Assembly (NCBI GenBank): GCA_029210745.1
Contig: JARGFI010000015.1
Location: 17,379 to 56,347 of the forward strand
Direction: 5' to 3'
Origin: Desulfuromonadales bacterium
GTDB taxonomy: Bacteria > Desulfobacterota > Desulfuromonadia > Desulfuromonadales > JAHYIW01
DNA: 38,969 bases
The notes under the pieces were generated by a model. The model saw only the letters and a list, made by a program, of their open reading frames with translations, ran no database searches and had not been told where the DNA came from. Shown here in pieces: positions 6,601-37,116 of this stretch (position 1 is the first letter of the stretch; each line of letters begins with the position of its first letter). The translations under genes were made by a program, and so were the position numbers.

Positions 6601-7415
6601 TTACCCCTTGATGCGGCACTGCCAGGGATCGCCCGGCAGTCGGGCAATTAATGTCTCCATGATGAAATCGAAGGCTTGATCAAAGTTCCAGTGAATATCA
6701 GCTATCAACAGCGGTTCGATATCGGCATTGAATTTCTCGTCTAACCGTTTTTCCAAAAGGTTTTGCTCAAACAAAGCTCTGCTGATCAAAAACTCGCCAT
6801 ACTCCATGTATTGCAGAAAACTGTCGATGACACGCTCAACGTCTGGTGCTGGAAGCCCTTTGGTCAAAGCAAACCAAAGATCAAAAAGATCGCGCCCTTT
6901 TTTACGCTGATAAAGTGCACGGGTCTTGGTGCCGAGCAATTCATCAACTTCGTAAGTCAAAATGTCAGCTGACCCCGAAAACCAGCGGGAGTTTAACTTC
7001 AGTGGAATTTTCTGGTAGCCATAGGCAGAAAAATGCTCCCGCGTATTGATCTCAATCTTCAAGGTGAGTGGCAGCCCATCCTCTGAGATAAACTGGTAGC
7101 GGAAGGTCACTCGGCCCAGGGTTTGCTTCCACTTCGGCGTACCCAACCATGGATTGATGACTTCACGAATACCCTCTATCAACTCACCAATCGGCCCGGC
7201 CTTGACCTGGACAAGATCGATATCTTCTGAGTAACGAACTGCAGGCATGTGCAGCTTGAACAACGCCGTTCCACCACGAAAAGCGAGATTACTCGCCAGC
7301 AGCGGGTGATTAAAAATACCAGCGCTCGACAGATGATCAGATCCTGTTCAATCATGCCTGGTGTCGGCCAGGGCGCACGTTGTCGCCATTCGGTTATGTA
7401 CGCTTTGGCAATCAA
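6601..7415 (-). pseudogene. abiEii: AbiEii-family nucleotidyltransferase toxin, frameshifted
   Basis: Toxin half of the AbiE type IV toxin-antitoxin/abortive-infection system, a nucleotidyltransferase-fold protein. The N-terminus starts at 7415 (MIAKAYITEWRQRAPW, then EQDLIICRALV). The family motif NLAFRGGTALFKL and everything after it, including RYSEDIDLV (nucleotidyltransferase Asp pair) and KGRDLFDLWFAL, lie in another frame. The break falls in a run of five T on the coding strand (about 7312-7316); a sixth T would restore a continuous protein of about 270 residues. The start overlaps the abiEi stop by four bases (ATGA), the usual translational coupling. The cause may be real inactivation, slippage or a homopolymer sequencing error. 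Confidence 0.82.
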
Positions 7416-8191
7416 AAGTCAGGTTCCACTTCAGTATTGATAAAAACCTTCCACCGGTTGTCGGTTCGTGCCCCTTTGATATCTGCCGATGGCAACAGCG
7501 GAGTTCTCACCGGTTGGCGAGCTTTGACATATTGAGCCAGTGCCTCACTCACAGATCCGGCCTCAATCAGGTTCAGCAAATAGCCCAGCCGCTGAGACCA
7601 GGAGATCGGTGAGCTTACGGCGATTTTTGCCAGTTTTATTGGATCCAGTTTTTCGGCAAGATCCACCAGTACGGTTGCCACATTATCCAGCCCGACACAT
7701 TTGTTGTAATAGCCCACAAGGTCAAAAGCCGTTGCTTCTGGAGTTGAGAATTTCAGGATACCAGTCGGTGTATTGCGGGTCTGAGTCTCGATATCCTGCG
7801 CATTTTTTCTAACCACAAAATCGATTTTCACCTTTCCGCAGAGGATCGAACGGCGCGGTTTGGTTACCACCACCTGAAAGATCTGCGGGCGGTGATGCGC
7901 TGCACCATGATACTCTGCGGCACTGAGTAAACCGGCATAATATTGTTCCCCCAGGCAAGACATCAGATCGGGAATCAATTGCTCGGCGGGAAGACAACCT
8001 AATGAACGATACTCCGGTGGGACAATGACATAAAAGCCCCGTAACGGCATGGCAATCTCGCCCTTTTTTAACAACCGGGCAAGTGCTGCCTTAAGTGCGC
8101 TCGGGGACGATTCGACCCTTTGTTGCAAATCAGCGAAGCTGAAGCTGGATCGACCGATGGATGAAAGTTGTGCAATATCGTCTGCAAGCAT
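7412..8191 (-). CDS. abiEi: AbiEi-family type IV antitoxin / transcriptional autoregulator
   Basis: Antitoxin of the AbiE system. Members pair an N-terminal winged-helix domain, which represses their own promoter, with a C-terminal antitoxin domain. Here residues about 1-55 form the winged helix (FSFADLQQRV, ALARLLKKGEIAMPLRGFYVIVP). The C-terminal part contains the family stretches YYAGLLSAAEYHGAAHHRPQ and FSTPEATAFDLVGYY. The 259-residue length fits and the frame is intact. AGAGG lies five bases before the ATG. It overlaps the broken AbiEii gene by four bases. Retention of an antitoxin beside a disabled toxin is a common decay state. Confidence 0.9.
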   Translation of the reverse strand: MLADDIAQLSSIGRSSFSFADLQQRVESSPSALKAALARLLKKGEIAMPLRGFYVIVPPEYRSLGCLPAEQLIPDLMSCLGEQYYAGLLSAAEYHGAAHHRPQIFQVVVTKPRRSILCGKVKIDFVVRKNAQDIETQTRNTPTGILKFSTPEATAFDLVGYYNKCVGLDNVATVLVDLAEKLDPIKLAKIAVSSPISWSQRLGYLLNLIEAGSVSEALAQYVKARQPVRTPLLPSADIKGARTDNRWKVFINTEVEPDF

Positions 8192-12015: not shown

Positions 12016-12282
12016 CTACAGGAGTTTTTTATATACATCTTTCCGGTGACCAACTTTTACGACAAGGATGACAAGCCGTTCACCATGAATTTCGTAAATT
12101 ATCCGATAATCACCAGATCGTACTTTATGAAAAGAATGGCCTCCCTTCATTTTGGTTGTCGCAGGCTCAGGCAAATTCTCGGCTATTTCGTCAATCTTTT
12201 TCTTGACCCGTTGCAGGTCTTTCTTGGGCAGCTGTTTGAGGCTCTTCAGGACAGCGGGCCTGAACTCAACAGAATATTTCAT
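12016..12282 (-). CDS. RelE/ParE-superfamily toxin
   Basis: An 88-residue type II toxin with the RelE fold, expected to be an mRNA interferase. The N-terminus YSVEFRPAVLKSLKQLPKKD, the motif KMKGGHSFHKVRSGDYRIIYEI and the C-terminal LVILVVKVGHRKDVYKK are typical of RelE toxins, with basic residues around RSGDYR and the C-terminal HR positions. It starts three bases after the stop of the upstream antitoxin, which places antitoxin first and implies coupled translation. The target site and exact subfamily cannot be told from sequence alone. Confidence 0.9.
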   Translation of the reverse strand: MKYSVEFRPAVLKSLKQLPKKDLQRVKKKIDEIAENLPEPATTKMKGGHSFHKVRSGDYRIIYEIHGERLVILVVKVGHRKDVYKKLL

Positions 12283-12285
12283 GGA

Positions 12286-12540
12286 TCAGATAAGCCCTAA
12301 ATCTTGCCAAACTTTTTCCGCAGGGATGTTTTCTCCTGGTTCAGCAAGGGCTTCTTTTGCATCTTCGATATCAATATGGTCTTCAATAAGCTCAAGTAAC
12401 TCCAGTTCTTCCATGGAAATCAGGGCCGCAATCTCCTCCCCTCGACGGGTCAGCACAACGGGCTCTTTTCCGTACGCTACCTTGTTGACGATCTCGGCAA
12501 GCTTTTTTCTGGCTTCGGCTGTAGTCACTGTATTGTGCAT
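12286..12540 (-). CDS. Phd/YefM-family antitoxin
   Basis: An 84-residue antitoxin. The N-terminal DNA-binding Phd/YefM domain (TVTTAEARKKLAEIVNKVAYGKEPVVLTRRGEEIAALIS, residues about 4-42) precedes an acidic C-terminal tail expected to wrap the RelE toxin. GGAGG lies seven bases before the ATG. A promoter with a TGTACA-like operator lies directly upstream, consistent with the autoregulation known in this family. Confidence 0.92.
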   Translation of the reverse strand: MHNTVTTAEARKKLAEIVNKVAYGKEPVVLTRRGEEIAALISMEELELLELIEDHIDIEDAKEALAEPGENIPAEKVWQDLGLI

Positions 12541-24672: not shown

Positions 24673-24692
24673 TCTTACGATGAGCAGTGACC

Positions 24693-25526
24693 ATGGTTGA
24701 CATTGGCAAAATAAATACGCTCAGGGTGCGGCAGGTTGACCTGCGCGGGGCCTGGCTGGGGGAGGGCGACAACCTCGTCCTGCTGCCGCGCCGGGAAGCG
24801 CCGCCGGAGGTTCAGGAGGGTGACCGGCTGACGGTCTTTATCTATCACAGCTCCGACGCAACGTTGGCCGCGACCACCCGAATTCCAAAAGCGCAGGTCG
24901 GTGAATTTGCTCGGCTCAAGGTCAATCAAACCTCCAAACATGGGGCGTTTCTCGATTGGGGGATGGAGAAAGATCTGTTGGTGCCTTACAGCGAACAGCC
25001 GGAACGGATGCGCGAGGGGCGCAGTTATCTGGTCAAGGTCTGTCTTGACGACCGCCAGCGACCGATCGGAACCGCTCTGATAGACCTCTGTTTTGCCGTC
25101 GATAGCGTTGACGTGAAGGCAGGTCAACCGGTGCAACTGATGGTCTGGCGTTTTACTGAACTGGGCGCGGCGGTGATTATCAATCATCGCTACGAGGGGC
25201 TGCTTTACCGGGATGAGATGGGTGACAATGTGCGCCCCGGCGATCGCCTGTCCGGTTATGTCCGCAAGGTGCGTGCCGATGGCAAGATCGATGTCACGCT
25301 GCGGCCGACGGGGGTTGCGGGAATCCGCGAAGGGAAGGATTCGTTGCTGACGCTGTTGCAAGAGCGTGAGTTTCTGCCGGTCCATGACCGAAGTACCCCC
25401 GAAACGATCCAGCGGGAAACCGGAATGAGCAAGAAACTTTTCAAAAAAGCGCTCGGCGGTCTTTACAAGGCCGGGCTGGTTGAACTGGTCGAGGACGGCG
25501 TGCGTCTCAAAAAAGGGAAAGGATAA
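24693..25526 (+). CDS. cvfB: CvfB-family S1 RNA-binding protein
   Basis: About 277 residues with tandem S1-like OB domains and a C-terminal winged helix, as in CvfB of Gram-positive bacteria. The stretches VNQTSKHGAFLDWGMEKDLLVPYSEQ, YEGLLYRDEMGDNVRPGD and GYVRKVRADGKIDVTLRP are S1-domain signatures. The C-terminal segment from MSKKLFKKALGGLYKAGLVEL looks like the winged helix. It lies 20 bases after sucD and seven before the selenoprotein gene. An in-frame GTG at 24687 is an equal start choice; neither has a strong ribosome site. Targets in this group of bacteria are not known. Confidence 0.85.
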   Translation: MVDIGKINTLRVRQVDLRGAWLGEGDNLVLLPRREAPPEVQEGDRLTVFIYHSSDATLAATTRIPKAQVGEFARLKVNQTSKHGAFLDWGMEKDLLVPYSEQPERMREGRSYLVKVCLDDRQRPIGTALIDLCFAVDSVDVKAGQPVQLMVWRFTELGAAVIINHRYEGLLYRDEMGDNVRPGDRLSGYVRKVRADGKIDVTLRPTGVAGIREGKDSLLTLLQEREFLPVHDRSTPETIQRETGMSKKLFKKALGGLYKAGLVELVEDGVRLKKGKG

Positions 25527-25532
25527 AGAACA

Positions 25533-26060
25533 ATGCGTATGAACGGGATGAAAGATGCGGAGGTTGGTTTCACCACCCGGATACTTTTCGCACTGCTGAA
25601 ATGGCGCACCGGCAAGGTGCCCGCGCCGCTGCGTGTTTATGCGCATAAACCGGGGATCATGCGCGGGTTTCTGACGCTGGCCCGCCGGGTGCGCGGTGGC
25701 GGGGTGTTGCCGGAACGACTCAAGCGCCTGGCGATGTACTGGACGGCACACCGCGTCGAGTGCACCTTTTGAATCGATCTGACTGACCGACTCGCCCGTG
25801 AGGCGGGTATCACCCCCGAAGAGATTACGGCGTTGGCCGATTTCAGAACCAGCGCGGCGTTCACCGCGCTGGAAAAGGACATCCTTGAATTTACCGAGCA
25901 ACTGACCGACACCCCGGTGCGGGTGCCGGAAGAACTCTATCAACGCCTGGCGGCAGAACTTTCAAAGGAACAACTGGTTGAACTGGCGGCAGCGATTGCA
26001 CTGGAGAACTTCAGTGCTCGTTTTAACCATGCGTTTGCGATTGAATTGGACGAAAAATAA
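25533..26060 (+). CDS. AhpD-like carboxymuconolactone-decarboxylase family protein, probable selenoprotein (CxxU)
   Basis: A single 175-residue protein if the in-frame UGA at 25770-25772 is read as selenocysteine. Both halves share one frame and together match CMD/AhpD-like proteins. The first half has PLRVYAHKPGIMRGFLTLARRV and WTAHRVECTF; the second has IDLTDRLAREAGITPEEITA, LADFRTSAAFTALEKDILEF, and IALENFSARFNHAF. The UGA sits at residue 80 in C77-T-F-U80, where AhpD-type redox proteins have CxxC. Such proteins reduce peroxides or thiols. A bacterial SECIS-like hairpin follows the UGA. AAAGGA is nine bases before the ATG. The alternative reading is a nonsense-mutated pseudogene. Confidence 0.85.
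25790..25808 (+). promoter_or_regulatory. Candidate bacterial SECIS hairpin
   Basis: Directly downstream of the UGA, ACTCGCC (25790-25796) pairs with GGCGGGT (25802-25808): seven pairs including one U-G. The loop is CGUGA. The loop starts 25 bases after the UGA and has G at its second position, agreeing with the known bacterial rules (loop about 16-37 bases from the UGA, a G among the first loop bases). This is the site SelB would bind. Confidence 0.65.
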
Positions 26061-26186
26061 ACCGATTTGCCCGGCAGGACACGAAGAGGCGCAAACGACC
26101 GTTGCATCAACCTCGCCGTGATCTTCGCGCTCTCCAGCGCGCAAAGTGAGCGAAGGGTGAACTCATTTTTCTGTGCAGAGAACTTG

Positions 26187-26224
26187 AACCATAACAGCCT
26201 GGACTGTTATGGTTTTCTTTTTTT
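26187..26224 (+). terminator. Strong rho-independent terminator of the sucCD-selenoprotein cluster
   Basis: AACCATAACAG (26187-26197), loop CCTGGA, CTGTTATGGTT (26204-26214): a perfect 11-bp stem followed by TTCTTTTTTTT-type sequence on the plus strand. The right arm contains the stop codon of the convergent YgiQ gene. The minus strand lacks a T-tract at the matching place, so the terminator works mainly for the plus strand. The 26061-26186 gap before it shows only a short CGCGCT/AGCGCG stem. Confidence 0.85.
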
Positions 26225-28727: not shown

Positions 28728-29417
28728 ATGAACCTATCGGTAAAAGAGGCCTCCCGGCTCCTGTCGGTCTCGGAAAAAACGATTTACCGCTGGATCAAGC
28801 AGAATATTCTGCCGATCTACAAGGTCAACGAGAGCTACCGTTTCAATCGTGCCGAGCTGCTCGAATGGGCGACTTCGCGGCGCCGACCGGTGGCCGTGGA
28901 AGCCTTCAGTGAGCCGGAGTCGAGTGCCCTGTCGCTCCCGACGCTGTCGGCGGCGCTCGAAGCAGGTGGAATTTTTTATCGCATCGAGGGGCGCAGCATA
29001 GATGCCGTGCTGGCCGACGCGGTCGCTCATTTAAGATTGTCAGACGGAGTTGACCGGCAGTATCTGCAACAGATGCTGATTACCCGCGAGCAGCTCACCT
29101 CAACCGCAATCGGCGAGCGCATCGCCCTTCCGCACCCGCGCAGCCCCGGCTTGCTGAACGTTGTCGGCTCGACAGTGACGATCTGCTTCCTTGAACATCC
29201 GGTCGATTTTCATGCTCTCGATGGTCAGGCCGTCGAGGTCCTGCTGCTGATCATCACCTCCAGTCTGCGCGTCCATCTGCATCTTCTTTCCCGCATCGGG
29301 TTTGTATTGCACGATAAAGAATTCCGCCGGGCGTTGCTGGCGCAGGAAAGTCGGGAGAATATTTTTGCGGCGCTGGCGCACGCCGAACAAAAGATCTTGC
29401 CTCCTGGGAAATCATGA
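28728..29417 (+). CDS. Excisionase-type HTH fused to a PTS EIIA (EIIA-Ntr-like) domain
   Basis: A 229-residue regulator. The N-terminal MerR/excisionase HTH (about 1-50) is LSVKEASRLLSVSEKTIYRWIKQNILPIYKVNESYRFN. The C-terminal EIIA-2 domain (about 70-222) has the phosphorylatable His136 in IALPHPRSP and TVTICFLEHPVDFHALDGQAVEVLLLI. Such fusions probably sense PTS-Ntr phosphorylation, linking nitrogen or carbon state to DNA binding. AAGGG precedes the ATG. The next gene starts 54 bases later and the complex genes follow, so control of that operon is likely; this is inference. Confidence 0.87.
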   Translation: MNLSVKEASRLLSVSEKTIYRWIKQNILPIYKVNESYRFNRAELLEWATSRRRPVAVEAFSEPESSALSLPTLSAALEAGGIFYRIEGRSIDAVLADAVAHLRLSDGVDRQYLQQMLITREQLTSTAIGERIALPHPRSPGLLNVVGSTVTICFLEHPVDFHALDGQAVEVLLLIITSSLRVHLHLLSRIGFVLHDKEFRRALLAQESRENIFAALAHAEQKILPPGKS

Positions 29418-29471: not shown

Positions 29472-29831
29472 ATGCGGCGTGGCTTTATCTGCTGCATGAC
29501 ACTGCTGCTGGCCTTCTTTCTTGTGGGTGGGATTGCTTGCGGCAGCCTCAAATATACCGGTGCCGGCTACGCCGGGCTGGCCGCCAATCATCTGCTGTCA
29601 AAGTTCATGGCGCCGCAGGTCAGCGGTGGAAAGGTCAGTGGTCTTTTTACGGTTCCCGTTCAGTTGGCACAGCATCCCCCGGAGATCGTCCTGACCCGCA
29701 TTCTGCATCCACTGTTTGTCGGTCTGGCCGGGTGCTGGCGACAGTTGTCCATTTATCTGCTCTATATGTTCGTCACCAGCGCAGTGTTGCTGGCCTGGAG
29801 TCTCTGGGCCGGCGGACACGGGGGAGGGTGA
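29472..29831 (+). CDS. Small membrane protein similar to the C-terminal tail of HyfB
   Basis: A protein of about 119 residues with an N-terminal membrane helix (FICCMTLLLAFFLVGGIA) and a C-terminal helix (IYLLYMFVTSAVLLAWSLW). Its middle resembles the extra-membrane tail of the HyfB encoded next. In the small protein the stretch is KVSGLFTVPVQLAQHPPEIV then LTRILHPLF; in HyfB it is QVAGLFPLRQTFSSHTPDAV then LDRILVPAF. Both start after a Tyr-Thr-(Ala/Gly)-(Ser/Gly)-(Phe/Tyr)-Ala motif and end in ARYLLY/IYLLY plus a helix. I chose the ATG at 29472, with GAGGAGG six bases upstream. HyfB begins one base after its stop, so it probably belongs to the complex. No named family recognised. Confidence 0.72.
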   Translation: MRRGFICCMTLLLAFFLVGGIACGSLKYTGAGYAGLAANHLLSKFMAPQVSGGKVSGLFTVPVQLAQHPPEIVLTRILHPLFVGLAGCWRQLSIYLLYMFVTSAVLLAWSLWAGGHGGG

Positions 29832-29832
29832 G

Positions 29833-31800
29833 ATGACGCTGCTGGGGGGCGGGCTGCTCCTGATAATGCTGGCCGGTGTGCCGGGGCTTTTCTGCCGCTC
29901 GGACGAACACGGCGGGGAACGTTTCGCGGCCCTGCTGACGCTCGTCGGGGCGGTTTGTATCGGTGCGGCAATCGTCAGCGCCACACGTGGCAGCGGGGAG
30001 CTGTCTCACACTTTTGCCTGGTCCGTTCCCGGCGCTTCCCTGGCGTTTTATCTGGACCCGCTGGCCATCTGTTTTCTGCTGCCGCTGCTGATCATCGTCG
30101 CCACCGGTGCGATCTACGGTTTGCGCTATTGGCCGCACCGCGAGCACCCCGCTAACGGTCGCAAGCTGCGCCTTTTTTATGGTCTGATCAGCGGAGCAAT
30201 GATCCTTTTGTTGCTGGCACGCAACGGCGTACTGTTTCTCATGGCCTGGGAAGTGATGGCGATCTCCGGCTATTTCCTGATCACCACCGAGGATCACCAA
30301 GCGGAGGTACGTCGCGCCGGGTTTATCTACCTGATTGCAACCCATACCGGAACTCTCGCCCTCTTCGCGCTTTTTGTCCTCCTTGGACCGTCGACCGGCT
30401 CGCTCGATTTTCCGGCAGCAGGAACCCTGGCCGCCACGGGAAGCAGCCTGATTTTTCTCCTCGGACTGTTCGGTTTCGGTATGAAGGCGGGACTGATGCC
30501 GTTGCACATCTGGCTGCCCGGCGCGCATGCCGCCGCTCCCAGTCACGCCTCGGCCCTCCTCTCCGGAGTGATGATCAAGACCGGCATCTACGGGCTGGTA
30601 CGCCTTACCTCGTTGTTTGCCGAGATCCCTGCCTGGTGGGGGTGGACGGTGCTGCTGCTCGGCGCGGTGTCGGGGATTATGGGGGTGGCGCTGGCGCTGG
30701 CGCAGCATGATATCAAACGGCTGCTCGCTTATCACAGTGTCGAGAACATCGGCATCATTGCCCTTGGTCTCGGCATTGCGCTCCTCGGACGCAGCTACGA
30801 TCAACCTGCGCTGATCGTGCTGGGACTGTCCGGCTGCCTGCTTCATGTGGTCAATCACGGTCTGTTCAAGGCGCTCCTCTTTTTGAGTGCCGGTTCGGTG
30901 ATCCATGCCGTCGGCAGTCGGCAGATCGACCACTACGGCGGCCTGCTCAAACTGCAACCGTGGACCGGGGCAATGTTCCTCGGCGGTGCGGTGGCGATCT
31001 GTGGACTGCCGCCGCTCAACGGTTTTGTCAGCGAGTGGCTGATCTATCTGGGCTCCTTCCAGGCGCTCAAACAACCGGGATCGGCACTCGCCGCGGCGGT
31101 TCTGGCCGCCCCGGTACTGGCCCTGATCGGCGGGCTGGCGCTGGCCTGTTTCGTCAAGGTTTTCGGGATTGCCTTTCTCGGGGAACCACGCACTACTGCG
31201 GCTGCGCAGGCCCACGAAGCCCCCGTGGCGATGCTCGCGCCGATGGTCACGCTGCTGGTCGCCTGCACCTGGATCGGCCTGCTGCCGACCACCCTGCACA
31301 CATTGTTGCAAAAGGCGGTCGGCACTTGGGCGGGAACGGTTGTCGCGGGAGTCGCCACAGGGTCAGTCGCCCCGCTGCGCTGGATCAGCCTCTCTGCCTG
31401 GTTGTTGCTGCTGCTGGTAGTGGTGCTGTTCGCTGTCGTGCGCTGGCGCAGTCGCACTGCCCCGCGCGAGCTTGGCACCTGGGGGTGCGGTTACCGCTTC
31501 CCCGCCGTGCGCATGCAGTACACGGCCAGTTCCTTTGCCGATTTTCTGATTCGGCTGTTTGCTTTTGGGCTCAACAGTGAAGAACACGGGCGGCAGGTGG
31601 CGGGACTCTTTCCCCTTCGGCAGACATTTTCCAGTCACACCCCGGACGCCGTCCTTGACCGGATTCTTGTCCCCGCATTCCGGGCGGGCAGCTGGCTTTG
31701 CCGTCGGTTGCGGGCATGGTTTCATAATGGCTCAATCGCGCGTTATCTGCTCTATGTCATTGTAACGGTGATCGTTCTGTTGACATTGTTTACTCCATAG
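29833..31800 (+). CDS. hyfB: HyfB-like proton-antiporter subunit of an Ehr-type complex
   Basis: Integral membrane subunit of the NuoL/HyfB/MrpA antiporter family: 655 residues with about 16 helices. The key charged residues of the proton path are visible: Glu in FLMAWEVMAISGYFL, Lys in GFGMKAGLMPLHIWLPGAH, and Lys in HVVNHGLFKALLFLSAG. LAQHDIKRLLAYHSVENIG is the usual loop. A long C-terminal segment beyond the core (GTWGCGYRFPAVRMQYTASS onwards) ends in a last helix and has a free-standing relative upstream. The ATG at 29833 has GGAGG upstream. Confidence 0.9.
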   Translation: MTLLGGGLLLIMLAGVPGLFCRSDEHGGERFAALLTLVGAVCIGAAIVSATRGSGELSHTFAWSVPGASLAFYLDPLAICFLLPLLIIVATGAIYGLRYWPHREHPANGRKLRLFYGLISGAMILLLLARNGVLFLMAWEVMAISGYFLITTEDHQAEVRRAGFIYLIATHTGTLALFALFVLLGPSTGSLDFPAAGTLAATGSSLIFLLGLFGFGMKAGLMPLHIWLPGAHAAAPSHASALLSGVMIKTGIYGLVRLTSLFAEIPAWWGWTVLLLGAVSGIMGVALALAQHDIKRLLAYHSVENIGIIALGLGIALLGRSYDQPALIVLGLSGCLLHVVNHGLFKALLFLSAGSVIHAVGSRQIDHYGGLLKLQPWTGAMFLGGAVAICGLPPLNGFVSEWLIYLGSFQALKQPGSALAAAVLAAPVLALIGGLALACFVKVFGIAFLGEPRTTAAAQAHEAPVAMLAPMVTLLVACTWIGLLPTTLHTLLQKAVGTWAGTVVAGVATGSVAPLRWISLSAWLLLLLVVVLFAVVRWRSRTAPRELGTWGCGYRFPAVRMQYTASSFADFLIRLFAFGLNSEEHGRQVAGLFPLRQTFSSHTPDAVLDRILVPAFRAGSWLCRRLRAWFHNGSIARYLLYVIVTVIVLLTLFTP

Positions 31801-31814
31801 AAAGGGTCAATGCC

Positions 31815-32729
31815 ATGTTGGGCAGTTTGGTTCTTCATCTGGTTTTGTTGCTGGTTTTTGCCCCGCTCTGGCTGGGGATTATCATCAAAGCCAAGGCGCT
31901 GTTCGGTGGCCGGGTCGGTGCGCCCCTGTTGCAACCCTACTACGATCTGGCGCGGTTGTGGCGCAAGGGGTTCGTCTTCAGCCGGACGACGACCTGGGTT
32001 TTTCTGGCGGGGCCGGTGGTCGGGCTGCTGGTGCCGTTACTGGCTTCCTTGCTCATCCCTTTTGGCGGGATCGACGCACCGGTCTCCTTCGAGGGGGATC
32101 TGATTCTGTTTGTTTACCTCTTTGCCCTGGCGCGTTTTTTTACCGTTGCCTCAGCGCTCGACACCGGTTCAAGCTTTGAGGGGATGGGGGCCGCCCGCGA
32201 AGTGACCTTCTCCTGTCTGGCGGAACCGACGGTGCTCTTTGCCCTGCTGGTGCTGGCCCGTCTCGCCGACGGACTTTCCCTTAATCAGCTCTTTGGCGAC
32301 CACCTAGGCCAGGCATGGCAAGGGGGGGCGGGGGCGTCGCTGGGACTGATCCTGGTCTGCCTGTTTGTGGTGCTGCTGGTGGAAAACTCGCGCATCCCCT
32401 TTGATGATCCCACCACCCATCTGGAACTGACGATGGTTCATGAGGTGATGGCCCTTGACCACAGCGGACCGCTGCTCGGCATGATCCTTTATGGCGCCGC
32501 CCTGAAGATGATGGTGATGAGCGCGTTGCTGGTGCGTTTGGCCGTGCCGTGGCAGACCGGCTGGTGGCTGACCGACGCCGGGCTGTTTCTGGCCGGGCTG
32601 GTGGGGGTGTCGCTGCTGGTCGGAATAATTGAGTCGACCATGGCACGCTTGCGGATGCCGCGGATTCCGCAGGTGTTGATCGGCACCTCGTTGCTGTCGA
32701 TTTTCGCCCTGGTGCTGGTCCTGCGCTGA
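31815..32729 (+). CDS. hyfC: HyfC/NuoH-like membrane subunit
   Basis: A 304-residue, roughly eight-helix homologue of HycD/HyfC and NuoH, which joins the membrane arm to the redox module. Family hallmarks are LARLWRKGFVFSRTTTW, the loop SSFEGMGAAREVTFSCLAEPT, and the acidic NSRIPFDDPTTHLELTMVHEVM. The charged-residue funnel (E, D, E, E) is retained. AAAGGG is eight bases before the ATG. Hydrogenase-4 and Ehr complexes share this subunit, so it does not separate them. Confidence 0.92.
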   Translation: MLGSLVLHLVLLLVFAPLWLGIIIKAKALFGGRVGAPLLQPYYDLARLWRKGFVFSRTTTWVFLAGPVVGLLVPLLASLLIPFGGIDAPVSFEGDLILFVYLFALARFFTVASALDTGSSFEGMGAAREVTFSCLAEPTVLFALLVLARLADGLSLNQLFGDHLGQAWQGGAGASLGLILVCLFVVLLVENSRIPFDDPTTHLELTMVHEVMALDHSGPLLGMILYGAALKMMVMSALLVRLAVPWQTGWWLTDAGLFLAGLVGVSLLVGIIESTMARLRMPRIPQVLIGTSLLSIFALVLVLR

Positions 32730-32770
32730 GCCCAACATGGAACTGAGCCGGGGCACGGAGTAAACGTATT

Positions 32771-33406
32771 ATGGAACTGACCAATTCAATCCTCCTTGCC
32801 GTTATTTTAATCAACTTCTTTACCCTCGGCAGCGCGCGGCTCGGGGCGTGTGTCAGGATCGTTGCCGTGCAGGGCGCGTTATTGGCGCTGTTGCCGATCA
32901 TGGTTCACGGGGTAACGCTGCACTCAACCCTGCTGGCGGCCGGAGCTTTCTGTTTCAAAGGGGTCATCATCCCCTGGATGCTGCTGCGGGCGATTCAACG
33001 GGTCAGGATTCGGCGCGAGATGGAGCCGATTGTCGGGTTTGTTCCGACGCTGATTCTCGGCACCCTGACCACCGCCGGGACTTTTCTGTTTGCTGATTTT
33101 CTGCCGCTGATCTCCGCCCACCATGAGGGGCTGTATGTCCCGACCGCACTGGCGACGATCTTCAGCGGTTTCCTGTTACTGATCACCCGCCGCAAGGCGA
33201 TCACCCTGGTGCTGGGTTATCTGATCCTGGAGAACGGGATCTTTATTTTCGGGGTACTGCTCAGTGAAGCGCTGCCGCTGATGGTCGAGACCGGGGTGCT
33301 GCTCGACCTGTTGGTCGGCGTCTTTGTCATGGGGATCGTTATGGACCAGATCAGCCGTGAATTTTCTACCCTCAACACGGAACGCCTGTCGGCGCTGAAG
33401 GAATAA
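32771..33406 (+). CDS. hyfE: HyfE/MnhC-NuoK-like membrane subunit
   Basis: A 211-residue protein with about six helices, related to HyfE of hydrogenase-4, whose C-terminal half resembles NuoK/MrpC. Recognisable stretches are the charged loop LRAIQRVRIRREMEPIVGFVP and the NuoK-like TRRKAITLVLGYLILENGIFIFG, with a membrane Glu in LENGIF. A further conserved stretch is MDQISREFSTLNTERLSALKE at the C-terminus. The next gene starts four bases after its stop and uses its 3' end as ribosome site. Confidence 0.88.
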   Translation: MELTNSILLAVILINFFTLGSARLGACVRIVAVQGALLALLPIMVHGVTLHSTLLAAGAFCFKGVIIPWMLLRAIQRVRIRREMEPIVGFVPTLILGTLTTAGTFLFADFLPLISAHHEGLYVPTALATIFSGFLLLITRRKAITLVLGYLILENGIFIFGVLLSEALPLMVETGVLLDLLVGVFVMGIVMDQISREFSTLNTERLSALKE

Positions 33407-33410
33407 TCCA

Positions 33411-34835
33411 ATGCTTGTATTCCTGATCGTCTTCCCGTTGATCATCGCCTTGTGCAGTCTGGTGATTCCCTGGTATCAGGTCCGCTCCTGGCTGCTGCCG
33501 ATCGTCAGTGCCGTGCACCTCTTGCTGTCGGGCATGCTTGTGCTCGGACGGTTTCCTGTAACTGGCGACTGGATCGGCCTTGATGCGCTGTCACAACTGG
33601 TGCTGGTAGTGACCAGTGTGCTCTTTTTCGGGTGCGCCGTTTATGCGGTCGGCTATCTTGACTTGCGCCGCGACCGGGGGAACCAGACGATGGTCCCCTG
33701 TCTGTTGATCTTTCTTGCGGTGATGACGCTGGCGATTGCCGCCCGCCATCTCGGTCTGCTGTGGGTCGCGGTCGAAGCGACCACGATTGCCAGTGCCCCA
33801 CTGATTTACTTCAACCGCAACCGGCTGTCGATCGAAGCCACCTGGAAGTACCTGATGATCTGTTCGGTGGGGATTGCGCTGGCGATGCTCGGCATTCTTT
33901 TCATCGCTTACGCGGCACTTGGCGGTGGCACACCGGTCAGCCTGCAATTCGACACGCTCCTTGCGCAGGCGCCACAACTGAGTAAACCGTGGCTGCATGC
34001 CGGGTTTGTTTTTCTGCTCGTCGGGTTCGGCACCAAAATGGGGCTGGCTCCGTTGCACTCCTGGAAACCTGATGCCTACGGCGAGGCACCCGGCATGATC
34101 GGCGCGCTCCTCGCCGGCGGACTTACCAGTGTGGCGTTTCTCGGTGTCCTGCGCGGCGTGCAACTGATGGCGGCAGCGGGAGACGGGGGAATGGCACGGC
34201 AGGCATTGCTCGGGATGGGGCTTCTGTCTCTGGCGCTGGCCGCAGTCTTCATGGTTCGCCAGCCCGACATCAAACGGTTGCTGGCCTACTCCTCGGTCGA
34301 ACACATGGGCTTGCTGGCGATCGGTGTCGGGATCGGTGGGGTGGCTGCCTTCGCGGCGATGCTCCATCTGGTCAACAATGCCCTGACCAAAGGGTGCCTG
34401 TTTCTCGCCGCCGGGAATGTTCAGCGGGCCTATACCAGCAAAAACCTCGCTGAGGTGCGCGGGGCCATCGGTGCGCTGCCGGTTTCCGGCACCCTCTTTC
34501 TGGCCGCTTTTCTGGCCATTACCGGATCTCCTCCGTTCGGGCCGTTCTTAAGTGAATTTACCATGTTGCGCGGTATTTTCGGGGGGGAACATTACGTCAT
34601 CGGGATGCTGGTTCTGGTGTTGCTGGCGATGGTCTTCATCGGCATGGGGGCGACGGTGCTGACATCGACGCAGGGCGCTCCGAGTGCCACCACCGCCGGT
34701 TTCCGCGATCGCTGGCTGCTCTGTATCTCGCCGCTCGGCTTCATTCTGCTGGTGCTGATCCTCGGGCTCTACATCCCGGAACCGTTGCGCGAAGCATTGC
34801 AACGCGCCGCTGACCTGCTGGAGGTGCACCCGTGA
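33411..34835 (+). CDS. hyfF: HyfF-like second proton-antiporter subunit
   Basis: A second antiporter-family (NuoM/HyfF) subunit of 474 residues and about 14 helices. The membrane Glu in LLWVAVEATTIASAPLI, Lys in GFGTKMGLAPLHSWKPDAYGEAPG, and the segment HLVNNALTKGCLFLAAGNV are present. The loop MVRQPDIKRLLAYSSVEHMG matches HyfF. Together with HyfB the complex therefore has two ion-pumping subunits. GAAGGA lies before the ATG. The stop overlaps the next GTG by four bases (GTGA). Confidence 0.91.
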   Translation: MLVFLIVFPLIIALCSLVIPWYQVRSWLLPIVSAVHLLLSGMLVLGRFPVTGDWIGLDALSQLVLVVTSVLFFGCAVYAVGYLDLRRDRGNQTMVPCLLIFLAVMTLAIAARHLGLLWVAVEATTIASAPLIYFNRNRLSIEATWKYLMICSVGIALAMLGILFIAYAALGGGTPVSLQFDTLLAQAPQLSKPWLHAGFVFLLVGFGTKMGLAPLHSWKPDAYGEAPGMIGALLAGGLTSVAFLGVLRGVQLMAAAGDGGMARQALLGMGLLSLALAAVFMVRQPDIKRLLAYSSVEHMGLLAIGVGIGGVAAFAAMLHLVNNALTKGCLFLAAGNVQRAYTSKNLAEVRGAIGALPVSGTLFLAAFLAITGSPPFGPFLSEFTMLRGIFGGEHYVIGMLVLVLLAMVFIGMGATVLTSTQGAPSATTAGFRDRWLLCISPLGFILLVLILGLYIPEPLREALQRAADLLEVHP

Positions 34836-36352
34836 ATTGCCCCGCATTGATCACCTTCCGCCCCGGCACCTGGATTGCGCTGGCCGACAGCCCCAGCCTC
34901 ACCCTGGCACACTTTCGTGCCAGCCTGCTCGCCGAGATCGGCAACGGTGCGCGCGTCGCCAGTTTTTTCGGTCAGCCGGGGGGTGAGGCTCTCGACCTCT
35001 TCGCCATTCTGGCCAACGACGTACGAGGCGAACTGGGGCTGCTCCGCACCAGTATCGGCAAGAGCTACCCGGCGCTGACCCCGGACTGCCCGCAACTGCA
35101 TCTGTTTGAACGTGAACTGGCCGAACAGTTCGGGGTGCGCCCGGAAGGGCACCCGTGGCTGAAGCCGGTGCGTTTTCACAATCACTGGGTTGATACCGCC
35201 GATCTCTGGGGACGTGCCGCCGGGGAACATCCGCTGGCCGGGGAAATGAATTTTTACCGGGTCGAAGGGGAGGAGGCGCACGAGGTCGCGGTGGGGCCGG
35301 TACATGCCGGGGTCATCGAGCCGGGACATTTCCGCTTTCAGTGTCACGGTGAAGAGGTCATGCATCTGGAAATTTCTCTCGGCTTTCAGCATCGCGGCAT
35401 TGAACAGTTGCTGGTCGGCGGCCCGCATCCGGCGACGATCTATCAACTCGAAACGGTCGCCGGGGATACGACAGTCGGTCACACCACAGCGTATTGTCGG
35501 CTGCTCGAATGCCTCGCCGGAACAACCGTTTCCGCACGTGCCGAGGCGATCCGGGAAATCGCGCTGGAGTTGGAGCGGCTTGCCAACCATGTTGGTGACA
35601 TCGGCGCGCTGGCCGGTGACGTCGGCTTTTTGCCGACCGCCTCGTTCTGCGGTCGCCTGCGGGGGGATTATCTGAACCTCACGGCGGAGCTTTGCGGCAG
35701 CCGTTTCGGACGCGGGCTGGTGCGACCGGGGGGCGTGCCCTGCGCACTCGATAAGACGCTGGTGGCAACGCTGAGACAACGGCTGGAGACGCTCGAACCG
35801 CAGACCAGGGGAGCGCTCGAACTCTGTTTTGACCGGCCTTCGGTCCTCGCCCGGTTTGAAGGGGTCGGTCGGGTTGCCGCCGCCGATGCCGAAGCTCTGG
35901 GGCTGGTTGGCGTCGCGGCGAGAGCCTGCGGCCTGTCGCGTGACGCGCGGGCAAATTTTCCCGGCGGCAGAAGTAAAGGGCATTTTGAACTGCCGCTCCT
36001 TGAGACGGAAGGGGATGTTTTCGCACGGGGGAATGTGCGCCGTCGCGAGGTTTACGCCGCGCATAAATTGCTCAACAGAGCACTTAGGCAGTTGCCGGAA
36101 GATCACGGCAACGTCCCGCTGGGCAACCTCGCGCCAGCGGCGCTGGCCGTTTCGATCTGCGAAGGGTGGCGCGGCGAGATCGTCCACACGGCGATCACCG
36201 ACGGCAAGGGGCGGATCGCTCGCTACAAGATCGTCGACCCCTCGTTCCACAACTGGAGCGGACTGGCCATGTCCCTGCGGGGGGAACAGATTTCCGACTT
36301 TCCGCTGTGCAACAAGAGCTTTAACTTGTCGTACTGCGGCTTTGATCTGTAG
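34832..36352 (+). CDS. hyfG: HyfG/NuoCD-like large subunit lacking the first [NiFe] Cys motif (Ehr type)
   Basis: A 506-residue fusion of a NuoC-like domain (about 60-125, DCPQLHLFERELAEQFGVRPEGHPWLKP) and a NuoD/[NiFe]-large-subunit-like domain (about 150-506, LEISLGFQHRGIEQLL). In hydrogenases the segment after HRG carries RxCGxC; here residues 208-221 read TVAGDTTVGHTTAY, with both cysteines replaced. The C-terminal DPCxxC is also changed, to FPLC493 and C502 eight residues apart. No Ni-Fe site can form, as in the energy-converting hydrogenase-related (Ehr) complexes of Geobacteraceae. The GTG start has GGAGG upstream. Confidence 0.89.
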   Translation: MNCPALITFRPGTWIALADSPSLTLAHFRASLLAEIGNGARVASFFGQPGGEALDLFAILANDVRGELGLLRTSIGKSYPALTPDCPQLHLFERELAEQFGVRPEGHPWLKPVRFHNHWVDTADLWGRAAGEHPLAGEMNFYRVEGEEAHEVAVGPVHAGVIEPGHFRFQCHGEEVMHLEISLGFQHRGIEQLLVGGPHPATIYQLETVAGDTTVGHTTAYCRLLECLAGTTVSARAEAIREIALELERLANHVGDIGALAGDVGFLPTASFCGRLRGDYLNLTAELCGSRFGRGLVRPGGVPCALDKTLVATLRQRLETLEPQTRGALELCFDRPSVLARFEGVGRVAAADAEALGLVGVAARACGLSRDARANFPGGRSKGHFELPLLETEGDVFARGNVRRREVYAAHKLLNRALRQLPEDHGNVPLGNLAPAALAVSICEGWRGEIVHTAITDGKGRIARYKIVDPSFHNWSGLAMSLRGEQISDFPLCNKSFNLSYCGFDL

Positions 36353-36363
36353 GGAGGATCGTC

Positions 36364-37116
36364 ATGCTGTCCATTATTCGTGAACGCTTCCGTCAAGGGC
36401 ATCGCACCGGCAAGTTTCCGAAAGAAGCGCCACAACTTCCCGCGCGTTTTCGGGGTTTGCCCGAGCCGGTTGGTGATCTTTCCTTGTCAGCCTGCTCCCG
36501 TGCGGTGGCAAACTGTCCGTTCGGAGCGTTGCGCAGCAGCGCTAACCGGCTGCATGTCGATCTCGGACGCTGCCTCTTTTGCGCCGATTGTCCGGCGGTG
36601 GCAGCCGGGGCGATAATGTTCAGCAACGACTACCGGCTGGCCGCGCGGTGTCGCGACGATCTGCTGCGCGGGGAAGAAGAATATCGGCTGGCGAAACAGC
36701 TCGACAAGCAGATGCTGAAACTTTTTGGCCGGTCGCTCAAATTGCGGCAGGTGTCCGCCGGGGGGTGCAACGCCTGTGAAGCCGATCTCAACGTCCTTGG
36801 CACCCTGGTCTTCGATCTGGCGCGGTTCGGCATCCAGTTTGTCGCCTCCCCGCGCCACGCTGACGGCATCATGGTCACCGGGCCGGTGACGGAAAACATG
36901 AAGAGTGCCGTGCTCGACACCTATGCCGCGATTCCCGCGCCGAAGCTGGTTATTGCTTCCGGCGCCTGCGCGATCGGCGGCGGGCCGTTTTGCAATTGCC
37001 CTGAAACGCACAACGGCATCGGCGATCTGCTCCCCGTCGACCTCTACATCCCCGGCTGTCCGCCCCATCCCTATACGGCACTGGACGGCCTGCTGCGGCT
37101 GCTCGGGAAACTTTAA
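36364..37116 (+). CDS. hyfI: HyfI/NuoB-like small subunit with degenerate N-terminal ferredoxin domain
   Basis: A 250-residue electron-transfer subunit. The C-terminal NuoB-like domain keeps all cluster ligands: C135 and C138 (GGCNACE), C202 (GACAIGGGPF) and C232 (PGCPPHP). The N-terminal part (about 40-90) resembles a 2[4Fe-4S] ferredoxin: CP at 51-52 and C70-x2-C73-x2-C76. The remaining positions of a two-cluster ferredoxin are missing. One [4Fe-4S] cluster (C51, C70, C73, C76) could still form. GGGAGG is six bases before the ATG. It follows the large subunit by 11 bases. Confidence 0.87.
   Translation: MLSIIRERFRQGHRTGKFPKEAPQLPARFRGLPEPVGDLSLSACSRAVANCPFGALRSSANRLHVDLGRCLFCADCPAVAAGAIMFSNDYRLAARCRDDLLRGEEEYRLAKQLDKQMLKLFGRSLKLRQVSAGGCNACEADLNVLGTLVFDLARFGIQFVASPRHADGIMVTGPVTENMKSAVLDTYAAIPAPKLVIASGACAIGGGPFCNCPETHNGIGDLLPVDLYIPGCPPHPYTALDGLLRLLGKL

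Follow-up and report, generated by a model that had tools for sequence, protein, structure and literature searches.

At positions 25533-26060 (+) of the window, by which we mean the whole stretch of 38,969 nucleotides analysed here from a Desulfuromonadales bacterium, lies a single frame of 175 codons and a TAA stop, whose sole internal stop is a TGA at codon 80 (25770-25772). The first-pass annotation had read the two apparent short genes at this place as one frame for one carboxymuconolactone-decarboxylase (CMD) protein, with the UGA at residue 80 as its only interruption, and both points are borne out: exactly one internal stop interrupts the frame, and the 175-residue read-through product matches the Pfam CMD family PF02627 straight across the UGA, uninterrupted over residues 40-122 (E 2.4e-11), at 43.9 bits against a gathering score of 23, which places it in the CMD superfamily. 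The UGA (+ strand), predicted to encode selenocysteine (Sec, U80), sits in a C77-T-F-U80 motif (sequence context VECTF-U-IDLTDRLAREAG), in which the Cys77 codon (25761-25763, +) specifies the first CxxU residue and predicted partner (resolving) Cys. Standard annotation splits genes of this type into two fragments without meaning. The 95 open codons past the TGA have a probability of ~2% by chance, given the composition, which is weak taken alone, so the case for the read-through frame rests on comparison.

Upstream, a cvfB-like gene with S1 domains and a CvfB winged helix (24687-25526, +) ends 6 nt before the start of this gene, hereafter the Sec-CMD gene, and the two are probably co-transcribed; 3' of the Sec-CMD gene lies an intrinsic terminator-like hairpin with a T-run (26186-26215, +; 12 pairs, tail TCTTTTTTTG). 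Elsewhere, the window holds an AbiEi/AbiEii-type toxin-antitoxin pair (6601-8191, -; Pfam AbiEi_1 and AbiEii), a ParE-type toxin with a Phd/YefM antitoxin (12016-12540, -), and a cluster resembling a membrane-bound hydrogenase or complex I relative, with 49-kDa, 30-kDa, and 20-kDa type subunits (29716-37116, +), ahead of which, at 28728, stands a helix-turn-helix regulator fused to a PTS EIIA domain.

Conservation of the UGA and selection on the downstream half

Full-length relatives (56-99% identity) occur in 7 of 58 genomes from this genus and order, the window's own genome being one of the 7, and in each of them the only internal stop is the same TGA. It stands at the same codon, with no other stop, in G001 (96% identity) and in G028, G016, G033, G019, and G014 (56-63%), and a GTDB genome scan joined two loci, L066 and L068, to the clade with the same TGA and again no other stop. 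Across the distinct clade members found, 8 of 8 carry this TGA, down to 56% identity, within the motif [VI]ECx[FY]U[IV]DLT; the TGC for Cys77 is invariant in the clade. No Cys version was found within the close clade, and neither TGG nor TGC or TGT occurs at this site in close relatives.

About 50 distant relatives (30-42% identity), also from the GTDB genome scan, likewise have UGA at this codon and nearly all read GCPFU here; they span several phyla, with sources including Rokubacteria, Burkholderiales, relatives of Reyranella and Enhydrobacter, Chloroflexi, and others. The partner residue is Cys in 30 of 31 Sec relatives. One distant relative (L051, G092:C189) reads SPYU, the Sec being kept and the partner Cys replaced by Ser. 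Homologues with Cys at the UGA position are E. coli YnjA (CEFC), PA0269 (CAYC), Atu0492 (CAFC), and the loci L058, L063, and L161, and alignment with YnjA and PA0269 puts the UGA at the second Cys of CxxC, as had been proposed from the window alone. YnjA and the other CxxC rows form long branches in the tree, with support of 42/86 for their grouping; with long branches meeting and Cys rows grouping weakly, the tree does not yield the origin of the Sec.

Protein conservation in the clade is stronger downstream of the UGA than upstream. In comparisons with the six other genera, where dS approaches saturation, dN falls from 0.35-0.45 upstream of the UGA to 0.23-0.31 downstream, and against the sister species the values after the UGA are dN 0.014 and dS 0.059. 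The relatives share no conserved start codon downstream of the UGA, and this, together with the constraint there, indicates that the second half is translated within the same protein.

Two readings that treat the UGA as a true stop were weighed against this evidence. A CMD gene recently broken by a nonsense mutation would explain a stop visible inside a recognisable domain; against such a pseudogene, the UGA occupies the same codon in at least 8 diverged genomes, purifying selection acts after it, and there is no other lesion, and we give this reading next to no probability. The earlier observation that neither half is otherwise damaged extends to the close homologues, which share the UGA and carry no further lesions. 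Alternatively, termination would release a 79-residue N-terminal product and re-initiation would supply a C-terminal one. Standard gene callers do see two ORFs, and, as Sec insertion has to compete with termination in the selenoproteins known so far, a certain amount of truncated product is to be expected; two separate proteins are nonetheless very improbable, for no conserved start follows the UGA, the CMD domain spans it, and the motif aligns with CxxC. The pseudogene and two-gene readings, and with them a sequencing error, were rejected on the conservation across independent genomes.

Selenocysteine machinery and a predicted SECIS hairpin

A search for selA, selB, selC, and selD, suggested beforehand as a check, recovered all four from the window's own genome: selA (601 bits), selB (378 bits), and selD (365 bits) are clustered on contig C96, and selC is present as a tRNA-Sec with anticodon TCA. 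The same sel set occurs in six relatives carrying the Sec-CMD gene. Among 12 tested genomes behind GTDB loci with Sec-CMD relatives, selA was found in 11 and was not seen in one, a 2.2 Mb MAG.

Two features of this machinery are recorded in passing. The genome's own selD (L136 5350-6450, G000:C96) is itself a selenoprotein gene, with an in-frame TGA (SSGUAAK) and a predicted hairpin starting 11 nt past the UGA, versus 17 nt in the Sec-CMD gene. Further, there are two tRNA-Sec genes (L134, G000:C97:1-4462; L135, G000:C22), and a yedF-like gene lies immediately upstream of each. Synteny with G001 is seen for the C22 copy (95% identity). The C97 copy, 74% identical to the C22 copy, has an IS21-like transposase pair next to it on a short contig and is either acquired or contamination.

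Downstream of the UGA, a SECIS hairpin is predicted at 25790-25808 (+), with a 7-bp stem (25790-25796 with 25802-25808) and the loop CGUGA (25797-25801). Published bSECIS criteria ask for a stem of 4-16 bp, a loop of 3-9 nt, a G in the first two loop positions, a spacing of 16-37 nt, and an MFE of at most -7.5 kcal/mol (PMC13188914); with 7 bp, CGUGA, 24 nt from UGA to loop, and -9.7 kcal/mol, the hairpin lies within these limits. In seven diverged genomes, codons 87-91 (CTC-GCC-CGT-GAG-GCG), five in a row, show no synonymous difference; identical codons occur among these genomes in 10 of the 66 invariant amino-acid columns with synonymous choice, and runs of at least 5 identical codons appeared in none of 20,000 permutations preserving the codons of each sequence. 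The outer stem pair joins the third bases of codons 86 and 92, both synonymous, and across 8 sequences it is UA in 4, AU in 3, and broken in 1, covariation within the clade being limited to this one pair. The minimal 19-nt hairpin stands out against shuffles (z -2.09), whereas embedded in 48 nt its folding is no better than that of shuffles (z -0.73), so thermodynamics alone are insufficient to reveal it.

A 7-bp hairpin is likewise present 3' of the UGA in the ~50 distant relatives, where both bases of several stem pairs have changed together with pairing preserved (e.g., C-G to G-C, or G-C to C-G or A-U). It starts 17 nt past the UGA in the window's clade versus 11 nt in the distant CPFU relatives, and its place in the reading frame differs between the two; two SECIS geometries in one protein family provide a natural test of the SelB spacing rule. 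A possible small helper hairpin between UGA and SECIS (25775-25789, +; 5 bp, loop UGACN) is weak, with 77.5% of cells paired over 8 sequences and mismatches in several.

These data also bear on the possibility that the UGA is read by a route other than Sec, through a near-cognate Trp or Cys or leaky read-through. Some leaky reading of UGA does occur in bacteria, and either mechanism would preserve the frame; but the genome has the full Sec machinery, the SECIS-like hairpin is under synonymous constraint, and the UGA falls exactly at the redox Cys, where close relatives have no TGG or TGC/TGT, so that a non-Sec route is most unlikely. On comparative sequence grounds, 25533-26060 almost certainly encodes one full-length selenoprotein with Sec at U80. 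The conserved UGA, sel genes, SECIS-like hairpin, and Cys homologues lend strong support to the CxxU selenoprotein that had been called probable in the first-pass annotation.

Predicted fold, active site, and chemistry

An AlphaFold2 model (37 sequences; mean pLDDT 94) has the CMD/AhpD fold. Its best structural match is the AhpD-family structure 6k40 (Z 20.7, rmsd 2.2, 174 aligned), and other matches are the AhpD-family 2oyo (Z 20.3), the debrominase Bmp8 (19.1), and PA0269 (~18). U80 aligns with PA0269 Cys51, equivalent to M. tuberculosis AhpD Cys133, and C77 with Cys48/Cys130, which makes C77/U80 an AhpD-type redox pair (CxxC or CxxU).

The AhpD relay comprises Glu118, Cys130, His132, Cys133, and His137 (PMC3141380). 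At the places of the relay Glu, His132, and His137, the window protein has Arg65, Phe79, and Thr84, and YnjA has Ser, Phe, and Thr; the proton-relay residues Glu118 and His137 thus have no counterpart, and Thr84 is found in 8 of 8 clade members. Judged from these aligned residues, the predicted Sec-CMD protein has kept the redox pair and lost the AhpD relay, and as the relay Glu and His are absent, peroxidase activity cannot be assumed. The original label of an AhpD-like CMD protein is accordingly right for the CMD/AhpD fold and wrong for AhpD proper, the protein being YnjA-like with R65 and T84 in place of the relay Glu and His. A selenol is ionised at neutral pH unaided, and the relay may be dispensable for this reason; YnjA, however, with Cys, is also without it.

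That Sec is incorporated, how U80 and C77 act in catalysis, and what the substrate is are our inferences. SelB with Sec-tRNA-Sec would bind the mRNA hairpin at 25790-25808 and deliver selenocysteine at UGA codon 80. In a CMD/AhpD fold of the YnjA type, this would place a selenol/thiol pair, C77-x-x-U80, at the N-terminal end of the active-site helix. The selenolate could then attack a peroxide, another electrophile, a disulfide, or a persulfide, C77 would resolve the selenenyl intermediate as an Se-S bond, and a cellular thiol reductant would in turn reduce that bond. We consider thiol/selenol redox exchange of this kind the most likely chemistry, with moderate confidence.

Gene neighbourhood and possible function

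The attachment to sucCD-cvfB noted in the first reading is found in the window's own genus and does not hold generally: G001, from that genus, alone retains the gene order around the window, and the sucCD-cvfB adjacency is absent in six other loci, on which ground a general functional link to sucCD-cvfB was rejected. In other genera, where pump and ATPase names are our reading of the sequences, the Sec-CMD gene follows a secreted two-domain rhodanese by ~56 nt and precedes a VTT/TVP38 protein (G033), precedes a VTT protein and follows a rhodanese remnant (G028), has a rhodanese and a P-type ATPase nearby (L066), follows a P-type ATPase (G014), or is flanked by an RND efflux pump and a P-type ATPase (G016). 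The G028 remnant (26 residues; L132 10410-10487), just upstream of the Sec-CMD gene, is what is left of a decayed old neighbourhood, and an intact rhodanese is encoded elsewhere in that genome.

E. coli ynjA lies within ydjX-ydjY-ydjZ-ynjABCD-ynjE, among DedA/TVP38 proteins and a sulfurtransferase, with a similar order in a Klebsiella plasmid record, and in pairwise tests the G033 rhodanese matches YnjE at 28% and the G033 VTT protein matches YdjX at 33%. This rhodanese was not found in the window's own genome, G001, or G014, so the YnjE-like neighbourhood is a hint only. Rhodanese as an obligatory partner was rejected, being missing from these three genomes and present in 11 genomes without Sec-CMD.

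These neighbourhoods raise another function, compatible with a selenoprotein: handling of sulfur or selenium (persulfide, selenide) or of metal-related electrophiles, not peroxide reduction. The secreted rhodanese and VTT/TVP38 protein, or the P-type/RND metal efflux genes, near the gene in other genera point this way, as do the placement of ynjA within ydjXYZ-ynjABCDE (two TVP38 membrane proteins, an ABC transporter, and a rhodanese) and the loss of the AhpD relay, but the neighbourhoods are variable and the rhodanese is not found in the three genomes above; we put this role forward tentatively, as less than an even prospect. A bolder proposal, which we think rather unlikely, is that the clade makes up a family not described before, with an obligatory Sec and a SECIS lying 6 nt further from the UGA than in CPFU relatives, and that this family works with a YnjE-like rhodanese and TVP38 in sulfur, selenium, or metal handling and is not a peroxidase.

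Relation to known proteins and annotation models

AhpD-like selenoproteins were rightly named at the outset as a known class, with CxxU members described since 2005. In that year the Sargasso Sea yielded AhpD-like and CMD-like selenoproteins with CxxU (PMC1088965), and the Sargasso Sea/GOS families comprise "AhpD-like" (COG2128) and "CMD domain-containing protein" (pfam02627) members (PMC1088965, PMC2398784, PMC9312934); among the deposited sequences given in PMC9312934 are MBW1767730.1 and MCB9421940.1. The window protein resembles these in its fold family, in CxxU with Sec at the second Cys, and in a downstream bacterial SECIS, and differs in belonging to a clade from Desulfuromonadales and relatives with the motif [VI]ECx[FY]U[IV]DLT, the metagenome members being compared by description only. 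Geobacter has a distant AhpD CxxU selenoprotein of the GSU3128 family (PMC1794560, PMC13188914); its model NF041047 (distant AhpD homolog, GSU3128 family), a short one of 84 positions, represents the same superfamily with CxxU, and the window protein gave no match to it at E 0.1.

The best curated match is NCBIfam NF053654 (GroundWater_YciW, YciW-related (seleno)protein), over profile positions 3-171 of 179 (E 9.2e-27), where the window protein scores 93.9 bits versus a cut-off of 310 bits; the distant CPFU relatives also fall below it (124-160 bits), and the model names no member tested. We file the finding as a clade of YnjA-type CMD selenoproteins from Desulfuromonadales and relatives that current models leave unnamed, of a selenoprotein kind already known. 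Once the clade is recognised, Desulfuromonadales proteomes gain a selenoprotein that the closest NCBI model misses by a wide margin.

M. tuberculosis AhpD and P. aeruginosa PA0269 share the superfamily fold, and their redox Cys pairs align with C77/U80, whereas their relay residues Glu118/Glu36 and His137/His55 are replaced by Arg65 and Thr84 in the window protein. E. coli YnjA, for which we found no functional study in the literature, has 34% identity over 147 residues (E 1e-20, pairwise) and reads CEFCVDIT against CTFUIDLT, so that both fit the YnjA-like pattern CxF[C/U]xDxT and share Thr where AhpD has His. It differs in having Cys for Sec and in a genomic setting that is unlike the window's but has elements, a VTT protein and a rhodanese, in common with other genera of the clade. 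The window protein and YnjA together offer a natural Sec/Cys pair for examining the contribution of selenium in the absence of the AhpD acid-base relay.
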